Positions 3,437-20,126 of a stretch of DNA of 24,339 bases are shown here, piece after piece. Location: positions 1-24,339 of the IMG/VR virus record IMGVR_UViG_3300033146_003317, one strand, 5' to 3'. The stretch's first letter is position 1. Every line of letters begins with the position of its first letter. The position numbers were made by a program, and so were the translations under genes. This stretch comes from a virus. A model generated the notes under the pieces. It was not told where the DNA came from and did not search any database. It saw nothing but the letters and a program-made list of their open reading frames with translations.

Positions 3437-5620
3437 TTATCCTCCTCGTTGAGTTGATGCTACATCCGCATCTCTATAATAAGCGTGAGTCGTTCTCGGA
3501 GAAAAATCATCACTAGCTATATGCGCTAGAAGTGAATTAGTAAGAAGCATACTTCCTGCTATAGCCCCTAAAACTTTCACTTGTTCTTCTTCGATTTCAA
3601 GAGCAGCGCTTGAATTTCTAACCAAATCTTCATCTTTAGATTTCGTTTCAGCTTCCTTAGACTCTTTTTCAACTTGAATCTCCGCTGCTTTCTCTGCTTC
3701 TTGCCGTTTAACGAAGTCTGTATCAATGGAATCATGAACAACTTTACCAACTTCTCCAACACCCCAAGCGCCGAGGAGACCACCGATAAGAGCAAGCACT
3801 GGAGACGCGACAGGTGCGGCTGGGCCGAAAGCGAGCCCAGCCATGCCGCCAGCATACGCGCCGCCAGCAAACCCTGCGCCTTCAGACACTCCTACGGTAA
3901 CTGCTCTAGATACATCTCGGTTCTCGGCAAGCTCAAGCGCGCCTCCTACAAGAAAACTTGCTGGTCCAGCGACCTTAGCGACCTTACCCATCACACTCGC
4001 CGTCTTACCCAACCCCTTTAAAGCCTTAGAGGTAGTCTTAGTACTGGGGGCTTTTGGGTCGAGGTGCGTGGGGAACCCCGCTTGGGCCTTGGGGACGGGC
4101 TTAGGGTTAATCTGAGGCGTGGGGAACCCCGCTGGCCTCGGCGCGGGGGTAGGAGTTGGTATCTTTCTAAACTTTCCTCCTTTTGAGAATGCCTTTTTTA
4201 ATACTTGACCACCCTTCACGAGGGCTCCGCCAGCTACTAGCTTTGCAATAACATCGCCTATACCTCCAAGACCTAGCTTGTCCGCTGACTGCAACGCCGA
4301 TTCTACTGCAGCGGCGTCCCCCATCGCAGTAGCTAATTCAGAAGTCGCGCCCTTTAAGTCATAAAAGGAAGTTCTTAATAAATCCGAAACTTCAGCAAGA
4401 CCTGCCTGAACAGTGTTTAGACCTGCTGTTTCAATGGCCCAGTTTTTCATAGCGTTGGAGGCGGCTATAGAGTTTTGAGTTATGCCCGTAGAAAGTTCTT
4501 CATCGGTTTTTATAGGAATTTTCCCTCCCTTCATTGCCGCTATAAGACCTGAAATACTACCAGCCTCGTTCATTGCGACATTAGCCGTCTGAATATCTGC
4601 AAGAGTAATACCAAACTTTCCAAAACGATGCTCGATAAACTGGGCACCTTGCCTTACCGTCATTCCAGCGATTTGCTTAGAAGCCCTTGATAAAGCGGCG
4701 ATAAAGTTCGCAGTATGCCTCCTGGGGTCGTCTCTGATTCCCTCAGAGTTAAAGGTTCCTCCAAACATACCCCCTAAAATATCTAGGTCAAGGAGACCCT
4801 TAACTGTTGTAGGCGCAGCTTTAGCAATCAATGCATTCATGCCGCCACCTGGAATGAGAGCGTCTAAACCTCCCACAATTTTTTGAAACTCTGTTGCTAT
4901 ACCACCCCCAAAGATAACTTGTTGGGCCTTAGTATTAGCTTCAAATGCGGCAACTGCGGCAAAGATAGAATCACCTAACATCCCGTTTGATAACGCAATA
5001 TTTTGCAAGTCCGTGCCTAGAGACAAGGTCTCATCCATAGACTTACCTAGAATATTTGTATTGGCGGCTAGGAATTTAGTGTTAGTCGCTGTCGATGTAC
5101 CTAAACCTGCAGAGCGTGCCAAGAAATTTTGAGTGTTCTTACCAAGACCTTTAACGTTTGCTCGCATAGCACTATCAAGCATAGCACCTTGCTGCAGAAT
5201 ATCGAAACCAAAGTGACCGAACTTTTCGGCTAGATTGTCCCCATTCATCAAGAAGGATTGGTTTGTAGCCGCAACCCCTCTAGCCATAGTATCCCCGTAC
5301 GCGAGCATATTAGAAGCGTTCTGAGCTAGTAGCTGGCGAGTCGCTCCAAGGACACCTTTAGCGACCCCGACAACCTTGTTTAGTGACCCTTTTTGGCCTG
5401 CACTTCCACTACCTCCTCCACCTCCACCATCATCATCTTCCCTGATAGCCTTCTCAAGAGGCTTTACAGCGTGAGAGAATTCTGCCCCTATAAGCTTTAC
5501 AGTTTTAGCGTCTAGAGATAAAGATGCGCCTTTAAAACCACCTTCAATGGCTTTATTTATACCTTTAGCGAGGTCTGAGTTTAAACCTTCAAAAAAGCTA
5601 TGGTCTTCGGGTGTAGGCAT
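3437..5620 (-). CDS. Tail tape measure protein (gp29-like)
   Basis: The 727-residue product has tape-measure composition: long Ala/Gly-rich helical stretches throughout, a poly-Gly hinge at about 65-73, and a Pro-rich hinge at about 490-530 with a twice-repeated AGFPT motif. A glycine-zipper hydrophobic block follows at roughly 550-635 (GAGFAGGAYAGGMAGLAFGP), then a charged coiled-coil Lys/Glu segment. Such proteins set tail length, sit inside the tube and leave first during DNA injection; the hydrophobic block may insert into the host inner membrane. T4 gp29 is 590 residues. At about 1.5 angstrom per residue, the general rule for tape measures, the tail would be near 100 nm. Its ATG lies 2 bases after the upstream stop, without a Shine-Dalgarno site. 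Confidence 0.75.
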   Translation of the reverse strand: MPTPEDHSFFEGLNSDLAKGINKAIEGGFKGASLSLDAKTVKLIGAEFSHAVKPLEKAIREDDDGGGGGGSGSAGQKGSLNKVVGVAKGVLGATRQLLAQNASNMLAYGDTMARGVAATNQSFLMNGDNLAEKFGHFGFDILQQGAMLDSAMRANVKGLGKNTQNFLARSAGLGTSTATNTKFLAANTNILGKSMDETLSLGTDLQNIALSNGMLGDSIFAAVAAFEANTKAQQVIFGGGIATEFQKIVGGLDALIPGGGMNALIAKAAPTTVKGLLDLDILGGMFGGTFNSEGIRDDPRRHTANFIAALSRASKQIAGMTVRQGAQFIEHRFGKFGITLADIQTANVAMNEAGSISGLIAAMKGGKIPIKTDEELSTGITQNSIAASNAMKNWAIETAGLNTVQAGLAEVSDLLRTSFYDLKGATSELATAMGDAAAVESALQSADKLGLGGIGDVIAKLVAGGALVKGGQVLKKAFSKGGKFRKIPTPTPAPRPAGFPTPQINPKPVPKAQAGFPTHLDPKAPSTKTTSKALKGLGKTASVMGKVAKVAGPASFLVGGALELAENRDVSRAVTVGVSEGAGFAGGAYAGGMAGLAFGPAAPVASPVLALIGGLLGAWGVGEVGKVVHDSIDTDFVKRQEAEKAAEIQVEKESKEAETKSKDEDLVRNSSAALEIEEEQVKVLGAIAGSMLLTNSLLAHIASDDFSPRTTHAYYRDADVASTQRGG

Positions 5621-6672: not shown

Positions 6673-7011
6673 TTACTCTGAGTCTCCTGTTCTATCGTAG
6701 TCATCTTGGCATATTACCACATCGTCTATCTCAGGCGTAGATACTTCTAACACGACTGTATTAGTATATGCCACCAATCTATGTACCTCTTCTGGGTAGA
6801 TGGTGTATTCTTCTCCTATCGTCATCAAGATACTCTTTCCATTCTTTACTAGGTCACAAGTGCCACTCTCTAGTACCATTGTTTCCATCTTCTTCTTATG
6901 GTATTGAAGTGAGAGTCTTTCATTCTTATCTATATAGAGTTTCTTTAGGCAATATTTATCATTGACCACTAGCCACTCCTCTCTTCCCCAAGGTTTTTTC
7001 ACGGTATGCAT
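6673..7011 (-). CDS. Cupin protein, mannose-6-phosphate isomerase type II-like
   Basis: This 112-residue single-domain cupin starts with KPWGREEW, the usual N-terminal signature of the isomerase domain found at the C-terminus of ManC/AlgA. Cupin motif 1 is RLSLQYHKKKMETMVLESG (about 32-50), with Gln36, His38 and Glu43 as likely metal ligands. Motif 2 is YPEEVHRLVAY with His77. The C-terminus VLEVSTPEIDDVVICQDDYDR matches the family ending. Such enzymes interconvert mannose-6-phosphate and fructose-6-phosphate; stand-alone phage copies may instead act in sugar modification. It has a good ribosome site (GGAG, 8 bases before ATG). With the downstream microprotein gene it forms a cassette between the two 31-bp repeats. 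A link to the glycosyltransferase at 17317 is possible but inferred. Confidence 0.75.
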   Translation of the reverse strand: MHTVKKPWGREEWLVVNDKYCLKKLYIDKNERLSLQYHKKKMETMVLESGTCDLVKNGKSILMTIGEEYTIYPEEVHRLVAYTNTVVLEVSTPEIDDVVICQDDYDRTGDSE

Positions 7012-7046
7012 ATTAATTACTCCAGAACTCTAAAGTGTATGTGTCA

Positions 7047-7859
7047 TCAGGTCTTAGGCTTAGTTCCCAGCCTCACCTTCTGCTTAGTGGCTTTATTAGC
7101 CGCTTTAGCTTCTTCCAGCATTTTATCAGTCCCTCCGAATTTAGGACAAAGCTGCTTGTATCCGCACCAGTCACAGAACTGGTTAAGGCGAGGCTTGAAG
7201 TCTTCAGCCTTCTTTTTTCGGATTGCCCACTTTTTTTGGTCAACTTTCTTTAAGAAACTTGCAACGTGGGAGGGCATGTATCGTATAGATACTAAGTTCC
7301 CAGTGAGGGGGTAGTAGTGGGCTACCGTAACATCTGAAATCTTACACTCGTACATCTGAGCGATTGCAGCGGTGTAAATCATGAGTTGAGGGTCGTTGTA
7401 AAGTTCCCTCTTAGTTTTCTCACGTTTTGAGGTCTTGTAGTCTATTACAAGATACTTCCCCGTCTCACCCTTTACCACGCGGTCGATAATCCCGTTAACC
7501 TCAAGGTCGGGGAGAACCTCGATTTTAAACTTCATTTCAGTAGAAACACTTTCCGTCAAATTGTTGTTGAATCGAAAGAAGTTTTTAATGCATTTAAGAG
7601 TATCGTCTGACCTTCCCGTAAATTTATACCTCGGTCGAAGCCGAAGGGCGTGCTCTTTAAGCTCCTCAATCGACTCCGCTTCGACTCCATCCTCAAGAAC
7701 CTTGTGAATATATGAGCCATACTGTAAAGCTTCCTTCGATAAGCCCTCGTTATACTTCTCAGGGAGGTAGTGGACGTAGTATTTATACGCAAAATTCAGC
7801 GTAAATAGAGTTTTTGGCGAGGAATTTACCATTAACTCCATCTTTATGGATGATGACAA
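7047..7859 (-). CDS. PD-(D/E)XK nuclease, Cas4/RecB-like
   Basis: The 270-residue protein has the RecB-family nuclease motifs in order: GSYIH (about 48-52), GIIDR with Asp126, VIDYKTSK with Asp140 and Lys142, and the QxxxY motif at 158-162. A C-terminal Cys cluster CDWCGYKQLC (C229, C232, C238; C-x2-C-x5-C) matches the iron-sulfur cluster end of Cas4 and AddB-type nucleases. The fourth, N-terminal cysteine of that cluster is absent: the expected spot reads NFAYKYYV. It probably acts on DNA ends in recombination or replication. The start could be ATG at 7859, 7841 or 7832; the last has GGAG three bases before it. The 5' end overlaps the divergent primase gene by 14 bases if 7859 is used. The 3' end carries the 31-bp hairpin repeat. 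Confidence 0.75.
   Translation of the reverse strand: MSSSIKMELMVNSSPKTLFTLNFAYKYYVHYLPEKYNEGLSKEALQYGSYIHKVLEDGVEAESIEELKEHALRLRPRYKFTGRSDDTLKCIKNFFRFNNNLTESVSTEMKFKIEVLPDLEVNGIIDRVVKGETGKYLVIDYKTSKREKTKRELYNDPQLMIYTAAIAQMYECKISDVTVAHYYPLTGNLVSIRYMPSHVASFLKKVDQKKWAIRKKKAEDFKPRLNQFCDWCGYKQLCPKFGGTDKMLEEAKAANKATKQKVRLGTKPKT
7049..7079. repeat. 31-bp hairpin direct repeat, copy 2, within the nuclease 3' end
   Basis: This copy encodes the last ten residues and stop of the nuclease on the minus strand (KVRLGTKPKT, TGA). It keeps the AGGCT/AGCCT and AGGT/ACCT stems but lacks a T tract on either side, so it is a stem-loop at a gene end rather than a clear terminator. Confidence 0.8.
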
Positions 7860-8736
7860 GATGAAGCTTTCCGTTAATATGGAGACTGGTCTGTGGCAAG
7901 ACTTTAAGGCGCATGAAACTGGTAACTTTCCCCAGCTTGTATCTGCAATAGAAGGTATTCCGTACGAAGCAGCCCTTAAGTTTCTACGTTCTAAGCTGTT
8001 TGACTCCCCCGAGCACCTGTTTGATATCTCCTCGATTCGCGTAGAGTTACAAAAGCCTGCTAAGCATAACGCAGTATCTGAAATATTCTCTTCTTTTTCT
8101 AAGTTTGACTTGAATCACTCAGACCCTACCAGTATGACTGATAGGTTAGCTAGGAAGTTCATACTTTCTAGGAAATTACACAAGTTTGATTTTTATATCG
8201 CTAAGAATGGAAGGTACAGCAACAGGCTTATTATCCCGTATGCTTATGGTGACAGCGAGCCTTTCTATTTTCAGGCTCGTAACCTGAGCGTTCTAGGTAC
8301 TAAGTATCTAAACCCCTCGCGTGAAGTAACAGGGGTTAAGTCTTCAGATATCCTATTCCCTTATAAGGAGGATGCGGATTATATCTTTATGACTGAAGGG
8401 CCTTTAGATGCTATTAGCCTACAATTGAACGGTCTTAACGCCACTTGCACTCAAGGTAGTAACCTTTCCGTATCTCAGGCAGATAAATTAAAAGATAAGC
8501 AGATTGTGTTTGCCTACGATAACGACGAAGCTGGTCGGGAGGGTGTAGTTCAGGCGCGTAATATGATGCTTATGAAAAATAAAAATCACTTCATGGTAGC
8601 GAAGCTCCCTAATGGTATAAAGGATTGGAACGAGTTACATGTCAGGTGCACTAAATCTGCCGAGTTCAAATCCTGTATCACTAACGGGCTACAAGAGGTA
8701 GATTTCTCTTATGAGGTTACCGAAGCACTAAACTGA
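7846..8736 (+). CDS. DnaG-type DNA primase (TOPRIM), gp61-like, zinc finger not present
   Basis: The 296-residue product carries a TOPRIM domain at about 178-262: IFMTEGPLDAISL with Glu184, then FAYDNDEAGREG with Asp225 and Asp227, then a KDWNEL segment. N-terminal residues 8-50 (KLSVNMETGLWQDF...GNFPQLV) match the segment that follows the zinc-binding region in phage primases, but no Cys/His zinc site precedes it. The frame stays open upstream to about 7780 (ending EEFTINSIF before Met1) without ATG, GTG or TTG. The true start may therefore be non-canonical, or the zinc finger has been lost or lies elsewhere. It would make RNA primers for phage lagging-strand synthesis. It lies head-to-head with the nuclease gene and its last 20 bases overlap the convergent gene at 8717. 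No Shine-Dalgarno site is seen. Confidence 0.8.
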   Translation: MDDDKMKLSVNMETGLWQDFKAHETGNFPQLVSAIEGIPYEAALKFLRSKLFDSPEHLFDISSIRVELQKPAKHNAVSEIFSSFSKFDLNHSDPTSMTDRLARKFILSRKLHKFDFYIAKNGRYSNRLIIPYAYGDSEPFYFQARNLSVLGTKYLNPSREVTGVKSSDILFPYKEDADYIFMTEGPLDAISLQLNGLNATCTQGSNLSVSQADKLKDKQIVFAYDNDEAGREGVVQARNMMLMKNKNHFMVAKLPNGIKDWNELHVRCTKSAEFKSCITNGLQEVDFSYEVTEALN

Positions 8737-9645: not shown

Positions 9646-9840
9646 TTAGTGTTTCCTTTGAGCTTGCTCCAACTCTTCATTTTGTTTGGAGCGCTCTTCC
9701 TTTAACAGCTTTATATACGTGCTTCGTTCTAGTAAAGTTAGTTTGTATACGTCAGAAAGACTTAAATTTACATGCTTCACGAGGAAATAGGCTTGTCGTT
9801 CTAGCCCATCATCTTTCCAGCCCTCCTTCAGCTCGCTGTA
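9646..9840 (-). CDS. -1 frameshift extension of the gp26-like protein, gp51-like helical tail
   Basis: After the T7 slippery run, the -1 frame stays open for 64 residues: YSELKEGWKDDGLERQAYFL, then a VNLSLSDVYKLTLLERSTY segment, then a charged helix ending EQAQRKH. The segment resembles the small proteins that follow gp26 in T4-type phages (a 'S-x-x-[DE]-[VIL]-x-x-L-x-x-x-E-R' helix pair followed by a Glu/Lys-rich tail), in the position of the T4 hub assembly catalyst gp51. The frame has no ATG. The only GTG is 20 codons in and lacks a ribosome site, and a CTG overlaps the upstream stop. The likely product is a 348-residue fusion, 284 residues of the gp26-like protein plus 64, in the manner of G/GT tail chaperone pairs. 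Confidence 0.6.
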   Translation of the reverse strand, partial: YSELKEGWKDDGLERQAYFLVKHVNLSLSDVYKLTLLERSTYIKLLKEERSKQNEELEQAQRKH

Positions 9841-10691
9841 AAAAAATTCTCATTCAACTGAATGTCAACCTTGTTCTTTGTGCTGCACCCCGCACATGTA
9901 TAAAAGAAATGGTTTTCCATTCCATACTCAGGAGCGAAGATTCTATTTCGTAGAGTGTCGATATCACGCACAGTAGTCTTATGAATAAACGCCTCGATAA
10001 TTGTCTTGTCGGTGATATTACCCACGCGGTATACGAACATATGCATGTTGTTCATAAGGTTAGAGTTATTGGTGTAAAGATGCTCATCTTGCATTCTAGG
10101 CAACTTAATCTCGCATTCCTGCTCGGAGTCAGGTAAAGTAAATACCATATGCTCTCGCGTAAGATTCGTAGTAGTTAAGCTCTTAATAGAAAGCTCTAGT
10201 TTGCTTGTAATGCTGCACTTATCGCAGTCATGCGCTACTTCATACCCATCGCCATAAGAGATACCCCTCAAGCGGTAAAGAACGTAAACCCTGTCATGGG
10301 GAGTTAACTCTCCAACTTCCAACCCATCCGTTGCATTACGGAGCAATCGCTCAATAACCGCATCAGGGTCCTTTATCCCGTCCATACTTTTTAGAATTCT
10401 CTCGTCTTCGAAAGTGAAGGGCCGAATCCTTATCGTTTTTTGACCGTCAGGGTACAAAAGACCTTGAGAAGGTAAAACAATCTCGCTCCACGCCATTTTG
10501 CTTTTTACTTTCCCTAAGAGCGCCTCTAACGCCGCCTCAACGTTCTTATCTACAGGGATGTTCTCGGACATCATCTGAGCTTTGCGGTCTACAGCGCCCT
10601 CCTGAGAGGTCTTAGGGGCTTCCTGCGGAGAACCGCCTGGGTTTCCCGTTTGGTGTTGTTTCACTAGGTCAACAATTGATTCTTGATTCAT
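9828..10691 (-). CDS. 26: Baseplate hub protein, gp26-like (T4 baseplate family)
   Basis: The start is taken at ATG 10691 (MNQESIVDLVKQHQTGN), giving 287 residues. An upstream in-frame start would cross the intergenic poly-T tract and add a hydrophobic stretch. A disordered Pro/Gly/Gln N-terminus of about 60 residues leads to the family core: VLPSQGLLY, then IRIRPFTFEDERIL. Two CxxC pairs (C156/C159 and C266/C269) suggest a zinc site. In T4, gp26 acts in assembly of the central baseplate hub. The gene ends at TGA 9828, but a T7 slippery run four codons earlier predicts a longer form. The start follows AATAAATAC, similar to the T4 late promoter TATAAATA, with GGA further upstream. It starts 49 bases from the divergent helicase gene. 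Confidence 0.75.
   Translation of the reverse strand: MNQESIVDLVKQHQTGNPGGSPQEAPKTSQEGAVDRKAQMMSENIPVDKNVEAALEALLGKVKSKMAWSEIVLPSQGLLYPDGQKTIRIRPFTFEDERILKSMDGIKDPDAVIERLLRNATDGLEVGELTPHDRVYVLYRLRGISYGDGYEVAHDCDKCSITSKLELSIKSLTTTNLTREHMVFTLPDSEQECEIKLPRMQDEHLYTNNSNLMNNMHMFVYRVGNITDKTIIEAFIHKTTVRDIDTLRNRIFAPEYGMENHFFYTCAGCSTKNKVDIQLNENFFTAS
9840..9846 (-). promoter_or_regulatory. Slippery heptamer T_TTT_TTT for -1 ribosomal frameshifting
   Basis: On the minus strand the gp26-like frame reads GAG AAT TTT TTT ACA, placing seven T residues exactly in the X_XXY_YYZ register. The zero frame stops four codons later at TGA 9828; the -1 frame continues 64 codons. Only weak pairing (CAGC with GCTG) is visible downstream, and no strong pseudoknot was recognised. 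Confidence 0.6.
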
Positions 10692-18514: not shown

Positions 18515-18790
18515 TCTACAAAGAATTACTATACTGTTTGGTCCTGGCTCGATACCCCCTATGCTATTAGAATGTCTTCTCCATTGGAAGAGGACGGTAC
18601 ATGGATAGTTAGGATAGAGCCTGGGTACGGCTTCCCGCACGAAAATCTTTCAGTTGTAAATCGCCCTAATTGGGAAGTAAAGCAAAAAATAATTGATGGT
18701 AGGTGGTATGCTTTTATTAAAGACCCAGAGAGTTTATTGTGGCCTGAATTTGACTCAGCTCAATTTGATTTTATGAACCAACTCCGTTAG
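18512..18790 (+). CDS. Small beta-rich protein, function unknown
   Basis: This 92-residue protein is rich in aromatic residues, with six tryptophans (YYTVWSWLDTPYAIRM, GTWIVRIEPGYGFPHENLSV, GRWYAFIKDPESLLWPEF). It looks like a compact beta sheet without Cys, signal peptide or membrane segment. It is a single plus-strand gene with its own TATA-like start region, and its last 20 bases overlap the convergent fibre-like gene. I do not recognise it. The coherent length and shared start element support a real gene. Confidence 0.6.
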   Translation: MSTKNYYTVWSWLDTPYAIRMSSPLEEDGTWIVRIEPGYGFPHENLSVVNRPNWEVKQKIIDGRWYAFIKDPESLLWPEFDSAQFDFMNQLR

Positions 18791-20126
18791 TAAATTGAGT
18801 TGAGTTGGCAAAAGTGTTAGGTGATGAGTATTCTGCTTCACTCTCATTATGGAAAATGGCAAAAATGTAGGGGTAATTACTGTGACCAGTGTTAATATCA
18901 TCAACGAGGTCCTCAATAGCGTCTGTCCCAGTCTGTCCGTTGTAACTGGCTATGCCTGTCCCTGCAGAATTAAATAGCTTTAAGCCATAGCTGTATGGAC
19001 CAGGGCGCGACCCCTGCCTATTGAGACCATGGTAAATGCTATTTCCAGCAGTACCAGCTATTTCTCCTGGTCCTGGCGGGTCGGGTTCATCCGAGGGCAT
19101 AGCATAAATAGTTAGTACATCAACACCCGTATCGGGGTCAACATATACAAACCAAGGAGTCTGTAGGGCCTCAGTCGTAGTCGTTGTTGTAGTTGTTGAA
19201 GTGTTACTAACGGTTGTAGTCGAGGTTGTAGTTGAAGTTGAAGTGCTTGTAGTTGAAGTTGTAGTGCTAGTTGAAGTTGTAGTGCTAGTTGAAGTTGTAG
19301 TCGAGGTTGAAGTTGTAGTAGTGGTTGCTGTAGTGGTTGAAGTAGTGGTTGTTGAAGTAGTGGTTGTTAAAGTAGAGGTTATTGGTGTTGTGGTTGAAGT
19401 AGTGGTTGTTGAAGTAGAGGTTGTTGAAGTAGAGGTTGTTGAAGTAGAGGTAGAGGTTGTACTAGTCACAGTTGTCATTGTTTGAGTAGTAGTAGTGACG
19501 GTAGGTACGAAGGGGGACCTGTCTTCGGTAAAGTTAAGGGTCCAACGTATCATTAAAGAGAAGTAGTCTTCTTTCTGAATGGGTGTAATATGCCTGTAAG
19601 CAGCCAAAAGGTGCCCAGGCTCTTCTCTAGGGGAAGTATCAACCGTAGAGTTTGAAGGTGAGTTTCCCCCTAACCCAAGTTGATTTGGATTATTAGTAGG
19701 TGCCTGCTCTAATTGAGACGCCTGACCTTGTACGAGGAATGGGTTGTCTACAAAAAGACCTACCTCGTTAATAGTCGTACCATTAGCTGTCTGTTCATCG
19801 AGAAATACTACACTTACAAGAGATGAAGTTCCTAGCTGGCCTTGGTGTGTAAGAGAAACGAAGTCCTGGTCTGTAAAGGGTACACCTTCCCTAATGTAAA
19901 GCGTTGCACTCGTTACGTCTACACTTCGAAGAACTCCGCCATATTCCTCATCGGTAAGGGGTGCGCCTAAAGATATAACAGAGGACGCTTCTACTACTGA
20001 GGAAGCTCCTTGACCTACTTGAAAATGATTTATTTGGTAGGGAGAGATATCACATTCACCCCTAACATTGGATTGACCTGTTAGAGTTCCAGGAAAACTT
20101 ATGTCTATAATATCGTCAAATTCCAT
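18771..20126 (-). CDS. Fibre-like structural protein with mucin-like Ser/Thr linker
   Basis: The 451-residue protein has three parts. The N-terminal 200 residues (LTDEEYGGVLRSVDVTSATL, TTINEVGLFVDN, LLAAYRHITPIQKEDYFSLM) resemble the N-terminal attachment domain of phage tail fibre or collar proteins, which often has an 'INEVGLF...aaYr.i.pi.K' pattern. Residues about 209-318 are almost only Ser and Thr. The C-terminal 130 residues (ALQTPWFVYVDPDTGVDVLT..., SIYHGLNRQGSRPGPYSYGL) form a separate beta-rich, Gly/Pro-rich domain, probably the tip. It follows the cysteine-rich gene by 6 bases, with GGAG ten bases before ATG. The Ser/Thr linker may be a flexible stalk and could be glycosylated; the repeat also invites length variation. 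Confidence 0.7.
   Translation of the reverse strand: MEFDDIIDISFPGTLTGQSNVRGECDISPYQINHFQVGQGASSVVEASSVISLGAPLTDEEYGGVLRSVDVTSATLYIREGVPFTDQDFVSLTHQGQLGTSSLVSVVFLDEQTANGTTINEVGLFVDNPFLVQGQASQLEQAPTNNPNQLGLGGNSPSNSTVDTSPREEPGHLLAAYRHITPIQKEDYFSLMIRWTLNFTEDRSPFVPTVTTTTQTMTTVTSTTSTSTSTTSTSTTSTSTTTTSTTTPITSTLTTTTSTTTTSTTTATTTTTSTSTTTSTSTTTSTSTTTSTTSTSTSTTTSTTTVSNTSTTTTTTTTEALQTPWFVYVDPDTGVDVLTIYAMPSDEPDPPGPGEIAGTAGNSIYHGLNRQGSRPGPYSYGLKLFNSAGTGIASYNGQTGTDAIEDLVDDINTGHSNYPYIFAIFHNESEAEYSSPNTFANSTQFTNGVGS
19173..19502 (-). repeat. Low-complexity Ser/Thr-coding repeat tract
   Basis: About 330 bases built of GTAGTTGAAGTT-like units (plus-strand reading) encode roughly 110 residues of Thr and Ser in the fibre-like protein. 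Several near-identical 15-18 base units sit in tandem (for example around 19253-19310 and 19322-19440), so slippage and assembly errors are likely here. Confidence 0.85.

Follow-up and report, generated by a model that had tools for sequence, protein, structure and literature searches.

A probable gp26/gp51-type tail assembly chaperone gene with a predicted −1 frameshift at seven Ts in an uncultured marine phage

How is an open reading frame expressed when it has no plausible start codon and overlaps the end of a gp26-like gene at a run of seven Ts? The question arises in a 24,339-nucleotide stretch of phage DNA (IMG/VR record IMGVR_UViG_3300033146_003317, a 24.3-kb piece; hereafter the window). 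The original prediction, made from the letters alone, was that a programmed −1 frameshift fuses a gp26-like hub protein to a gp51-like tail. Comparative evidence strongly supports such a fusion, and the phage seems to produce its chaperone in two lengths through a slip at the seven Ts. The features of the locus are as follows.

10691–9828, minus strand: gp26-like ORF, 287 aa plus stop, read as the short tail assembly chaperone (TAC-N; PF12322, phrog_150)
9846–9840, minus strand: slippery heptamer T_TTT_TTT, coding the invariant Phe-Phe (residues 283–284; from the letters and relatives)
9830–9828, minus strand: 0-frame stop TGA, end of the short product (position identical in all near relatives)
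9840–9646, minus strand: gp51-like C-terminal extension in the −1 frame, 64 codons and then TAA (phrog_634, dN/dS)
10691–9646, minus strand: predicted long fusion (TAC-NC), 348 aa (the virtual fusion aligns with the cyanophage fusion)
9637–8717, minus strand: next downstream gene, 306 aa, no family match (start kept in relatives L002–L004)
5620–3437, minus strand: probable tape measure protein, 727 aa, inferred chaperone client (from its length and its place between tail genes)

The layout of the site is as first described. The gp26-like ORF ends GAG AAT TTT TTT ACA GCG AGC TGA, with the Ts in exact −1 register and the TGA as the fourth codon past the second TTT of the heptamer. The −1 frame stays open for 64 codons to the TAA at 9648–9646, and the ATG of the next gene (9637) lies 8 bases beyond. 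The window's main ORFs (7,774 codons) hold eight in-register all-T or all-A slippery heptamers; none of the other seven lies as close as 10 codons to a stop. The extension was said to have no usable start. It does lack ATG, its GTG is late (codon 21) and none of its possible starts is conserved; however, a TTG (codon 57) and one of two CTGs (codons 4 and 45) had been missed. Relative L003 lacks the GTG, and ATG, GTG and TTG are absent from the first 12 shifted codons in 26 of 27 loci of the window's type, the exception (L104) carrying a TTG at shifted codon 4. The locus has both features by which a G/GT-type frameshift is recognized, a slippery site near the 3′ end and a start-less overlapping second ORF, each of them conserved.

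Near relatives indicate that the extension is translated. In three IMG/VR relatives, heptamer and stop are conserved, the extension again lacks a start, and the ATG still follows it. All three also have in common an unchanged 24-nt block, GAGAATTTTTTTACAGCGAGCTGA, which spans the heptamer and the 0-frame stop. L003 shares 82% protein identity with the window, and synonymous divergence in its gp26 gene is ∼1.9 substitutions per site, yet the block is still identical. Compared with L003, the extension has a dN/dS of 0.22 in the −1 frame and ∼1 in both other frames. It thus evolves as protein in the −1 frame only which, with an identical block despite synonymous divergence, indicates translation.

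The same arrangement extends far beyond these relatives. We scanned IMG/VR with gp26 profiles and obtained 175 scorable gp26-like genes with Phe-Phe near their end; counts from this survey are of contigs, not of independent events. The Phe-Phe (F283 F284) is invariant across 41 aligned sequences. All 27 window-type loci carry T_TTT_TTC (16) or T_TTT_TTT (11), a stop 3–4 codons past the Phe-Phe and a −1 extension. Likewise, all 81 cyanophage-type loci carry T_TTT_TTC, a stop one codon later and a −1 extension. The shift site is also present in cultured Syn33 and Vibrio phage nt-1, and a junction peptide around ...ASFFRIALLHTNLR is predicted for cyanophages such as Syn33, S-CAM8 and Syn9. After clustering at 70% identity, a T precedes the Phe-Phe codons in 35/35 clusters with a −1 extension. 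The comparison across genomes that the original prediction called for thus came out in its favor, and it is conservation, rather than the T run as such, that makes the case for a frameshift convincing. Eight further loci (L129, L130, L134 and their relatives L131, L137, L158, L159 and L176) have a −1 extension, most of their shift sites reading AAT TTC TTC TGG, in which AAT TTC TTC is a poor, non-classical heptamer. In Synechococcus phage S-SCSM1 (L013, 3675–3700), an 11-nt insertion just past an intact T_TTT_TTC places the extension in the +1 frame.

Other explanations of the second frame fare less well. One is that the extension is a separate small gene, translated from a non-ATG start or by termination-reinitiation with no frameshifting. 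Cyanophage records do give it its own CDS, and a TAATG stop-start overlap occurs in Cygsa01 and Vibrio phage nt-1. We nonetheless find a separate gene improbable: nt-1 retains the heptamer too, no start codon is conserved among the window-type loci, gp51 of T4 is a natural fusion, the shift site itself falls within both the region of coding constraint and the invariant block, and T_TTT_TTY in 108/108 loci would be left unexplained. An SD-type independent start was also considered and rejected; the window has a downstream AGGAGG, but the ATG that goes with it lies in the 0 frame, opens a stretch of just three codons and is missing from L003. Marginally less credible again is slippage by RNA polymerase rather than the ribosome, for which seven consecutive Ts would be a suitable substrate. 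However, in 16/27 window-type and 81/81 cyanophage-type loci the run is six Ts and then C, in codon register; because of these relatives, tandem tRNA slippage suits the data better and polymerase slippage is disfavored as the main mechanism. Finally, a sequencing error or recent frameshift mutation (a pseudogene whose parts truly share one frame) comes to mind with any homopolymer in a metagenome assembly, but has next to no chance of being right: a one-off run of 6 or 8 Ts, which the original prediction had named as fatal to it, is ruled out by the block common to three relatives, and independent assemblies with as little as ∼25% protein identity, as well as sequenced isolates, preserve the split, the heptamer and the stop, so conservation already refutes this reading.

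We return to a single tail assembly chaperone gene with two decodings, a short gp26-like product and a −1 fusion with a gp51-like end, which we hold to be very likely. The family of the short protein is clear. The gp26-like ORF matches Pfam T4_baseplate PF12322 (E 3.9e-17; 63.1 bits against a cut-off of 24.5; profile positions 10–218 of 219) and phrog_150 (baseplate hub; E 2e-20), and 41/41 relatives (set A9) match PF12322. The extension, searched against gp51-type profiles as had been proposed, matches phrog_634 over residues 17–63 with a modest score (E 7.9e-4), and this family is that of the ‘baseplate hub assembly catalyst’ (gp51). Homology of the single extension protein is modest; extension profiles built from the cyanophage group and from a third, +1 group (see below) both match it, and shuffled decoys score no better than 0.045. 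Structure prediction for the window protein (pLDDT 86.7) gave a model that retrieves viral proteins named gp26 and gp51, and a gp51 model retrieves gp26 proteins. Against the PDB, a fold search with the window model gave no significant match to a solved chaperone (Bacillus YqbN, 3klu, came up at a non-significant E 3 and TM 0.35 on the target), and a sequence search returned nothing relevant. Among the Pfam matches listed, none was to the lambda-type tail assembly chaperones. The short protein (9828–10691, minus strand) also contains two CxxC pairs (C156/C159 and C266/C269), and several relatives weakly match zinc-ribbon profiles; the short chaperone may bind zinc.

The T4 proteins themselves point to the same two forms. 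T4 gp26 and gp51 match each other (BLAST E 2e-6; profile E 1e-15). T4 gp51 matches phrog_150 over its whole length (E 2.6e-84), its C-terminal part matches phrog_634, and it aligns end to end, through the junction, with the cyanophage virtual −1 fusion (E 2.9e-12). In turn, the window-type virtual fusion matches its cyanophage counterpart, again across the junction (E 7.8e-13); aligned directly, T4 gp51 and window-type fusions match weakly (E 0.005), and the link runs via the cyanophages. By these alignments, T4 gp26 and gp51 are divergent paralogues. Because gp51 aligns with the fusion through the junction, we read gp26 as the short form and gp51 as the long form, with the predicted shift doing here what gene duplication does in T4. 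The ‘gp51-like tail’ of the original prediction hence needs qualification: the extension does match a gp51 family, but T4 gp51 corresponds to the whole fusion (paralogue plus extension), and we rejected an equation of the extension alone with T4 gp51. Similarly, ‘gp26-like hub protein’ names the right family, but the product is better read as a short tail assembly chaperone. Genes 26 and 51 were described as separate neighbors in T4; they are indeed two genes, but are divergently transcribed, whereas the window phage would use one gene with a −1 shift. We saw no separate full-length long-form gene among the scanned proteins of the window, a 24-kb piece.

By what mechanism would two products arise? 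Most likely, a ribosome slips back one base with tandem Phe-tRNAs. Most ribosomes would stop at the TGA and release the short chaperone; a minority would slip on T_TTT_TTT with both Phe-tRNAs and yield the 348-aa fusion with its 64-residue gp51-like end. What we observe is the sequence, its register, conservation, coding selection and homology; we infer the slip, its efficiency and the chaperone role. RNAalifold found no conserved downstream RNA structure in 7 near relatives, all 27 window-type loci or 28 cyanophage loci, so no stimulator was identified; single-sequence folding downstream of the window heptamer gave a z of about −1.8.

The chaperone role is suggested by homology and by analogy with lambda G/GT, where each form, short or long, binds the tape measure protein and is absent from the virion (PMC5009743). 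If the analogy holds, both forms would bind the tape measure protein here as well, with tail tube subunits brought in by the extension of the rare long form. T4 would obtain the same short form from gene 26 and the same long form from its paralogue, gene 51; a published account lists both products among the hub assembly chaperones, and the T4 particle lacks gp51 (PMC3004832). The window locus resembles G/GT in its short product, its predicted rare −1 extension from a start-less overlapping ORF, its heptamer near the 3′ end and its tail gene region. It differs in its heptamer, in its protein family (T4 gp26, PF12322; none of the Pfam matches listed is to a lambda-type chaperone) and in not lying directly before the tape measure gene. 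The original prediction had likened the arrangement upstream of the tape measure gene to G/GT. This needs correction: the probable tape measure gene (3437–5620; weak family matches only) lies ∼4 kb downstream, with several genes between, some on the opposite strand. In SP-15 and LIS04, the homologues are located between the tail tube and tape measure genes, adjacent to the latter in LIS04 and essentially so in SP-15. Primase-like, exonuclease-like and cysteine dioxygenase-family genes (7846–8736, plus strand; 6673–7859, minus strand) stand amid the window's tail genes, between the chaperone gene and the one that probably encodes the tape measure protein.

Frameshifting is not a new idea for this family, as the original prediction had supposed it might be. 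A 2016 review of recoding described the G-T frameshift as widely conserved ‘except T4’. Vladimirov, Gautam and Davidson (2022; Virology 566:9–15), as reported by papers that cite it, identified the tail assembly chaperone (TAC) genes of T4-like phages. The PRFect paper cites it for one short and one long, fused gene in these phages, and the Adele paper (2025; PMC12846349) cites it for poly-T slippery sites in their TAC-N genes. By these accounts, short and long chaperone genes in T4-like phages were already published. The Vandenendeviridae TAC (Adele, PMC12846349) likewise has a conserved −1 shift at a poly-T site (GTTTTT) near the end of TAC-N and an extension often missed in annotation; it belongs to another myovirus lineage and is likened here by site layout. 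The cyanophage (Kyanoviridae) gp26–gp51 pair shares with the window the stop just past the Phe-Phe, the −1 extension and the poly-T heptamer, but has T_TTT_TTC rather than T_TTT_TTT and one codon from heptamer to stop rather than three, and its parts are annotated as separate genes, the bare extension as ‘gp51: baseplate hub assembly catalyst’. In all, 515 phage records match the cyanophage extension, and many of them probably contain a shifted gene whose two pieces were entered separately or left unannotated. These results support a view of gp26 and gp51, which have long figured among the little-understood factors of the baseplate hub, as the short and long tail assembly chaperones of the T4 family.

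A third group of 44 loci, among them those of SP-15, LIS04, a Streptococcus phage and many IMG/VR contigs, shares these Phe-Phe codons, mostly as TTT TTT TGG, but has its homologous extension in the +1 frame. Its extension profile matches window-type extensions (best E 1.4e-13, against 0.085 at best for decoys). A T precedes the Phe codons in 3/44 of these loci but in 108/108 loci of the two −1 types (Fisher p 6e-34, not corrected for relatedness); at 70% identity, 35/36 clusters with a +1 extension lack it. Asp or Asn codons preceding the Phe-Phe end in C in 17/18 cases, whereas in the rest of these genes ∼70% of such codons have T as their last base. These patterns suggest selection against T ahead of the Phe codons in the +1 group. 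On balance we favor, with some reserve, a chaperone family that switched frameshift direction at the same Phe-Phe: −1 at T_TTT_TTY in the window and cyanophages, and +1 elsewhere (mostly TTT_TTT_TGG or TTT then C), selecting against the T that makes the heptamer, with T4 having dropped shifting by gene duplication. We found no description of the +1 branch or its T avoidance in the literature covered, in which Vladimirov 2022 is represented by the papers citing it. The −1/+1 contrast at a common site offers a natural experiment on the evolution of ribosome slip direction.

Some individual loci add detail. A +1 extension follows TTT TTT TGG or TTT C.. in L125, part of L128–L182, L005, L008, L009 and L096–L100. 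In Prevotella phage Lak-B5 (L011, 3920–4330), the gp26-like ORF ends GAT TTT TAA and a +1 extension follows, with TAG read as Gln; a +1 shift at TTT_TAA is possible there. Elsewhere in the window, an ORF of 451 aa (18771–20126, minus strand) contains an extended low-complexity repeat of Thr/Ser-Thr and has no PHROG match.
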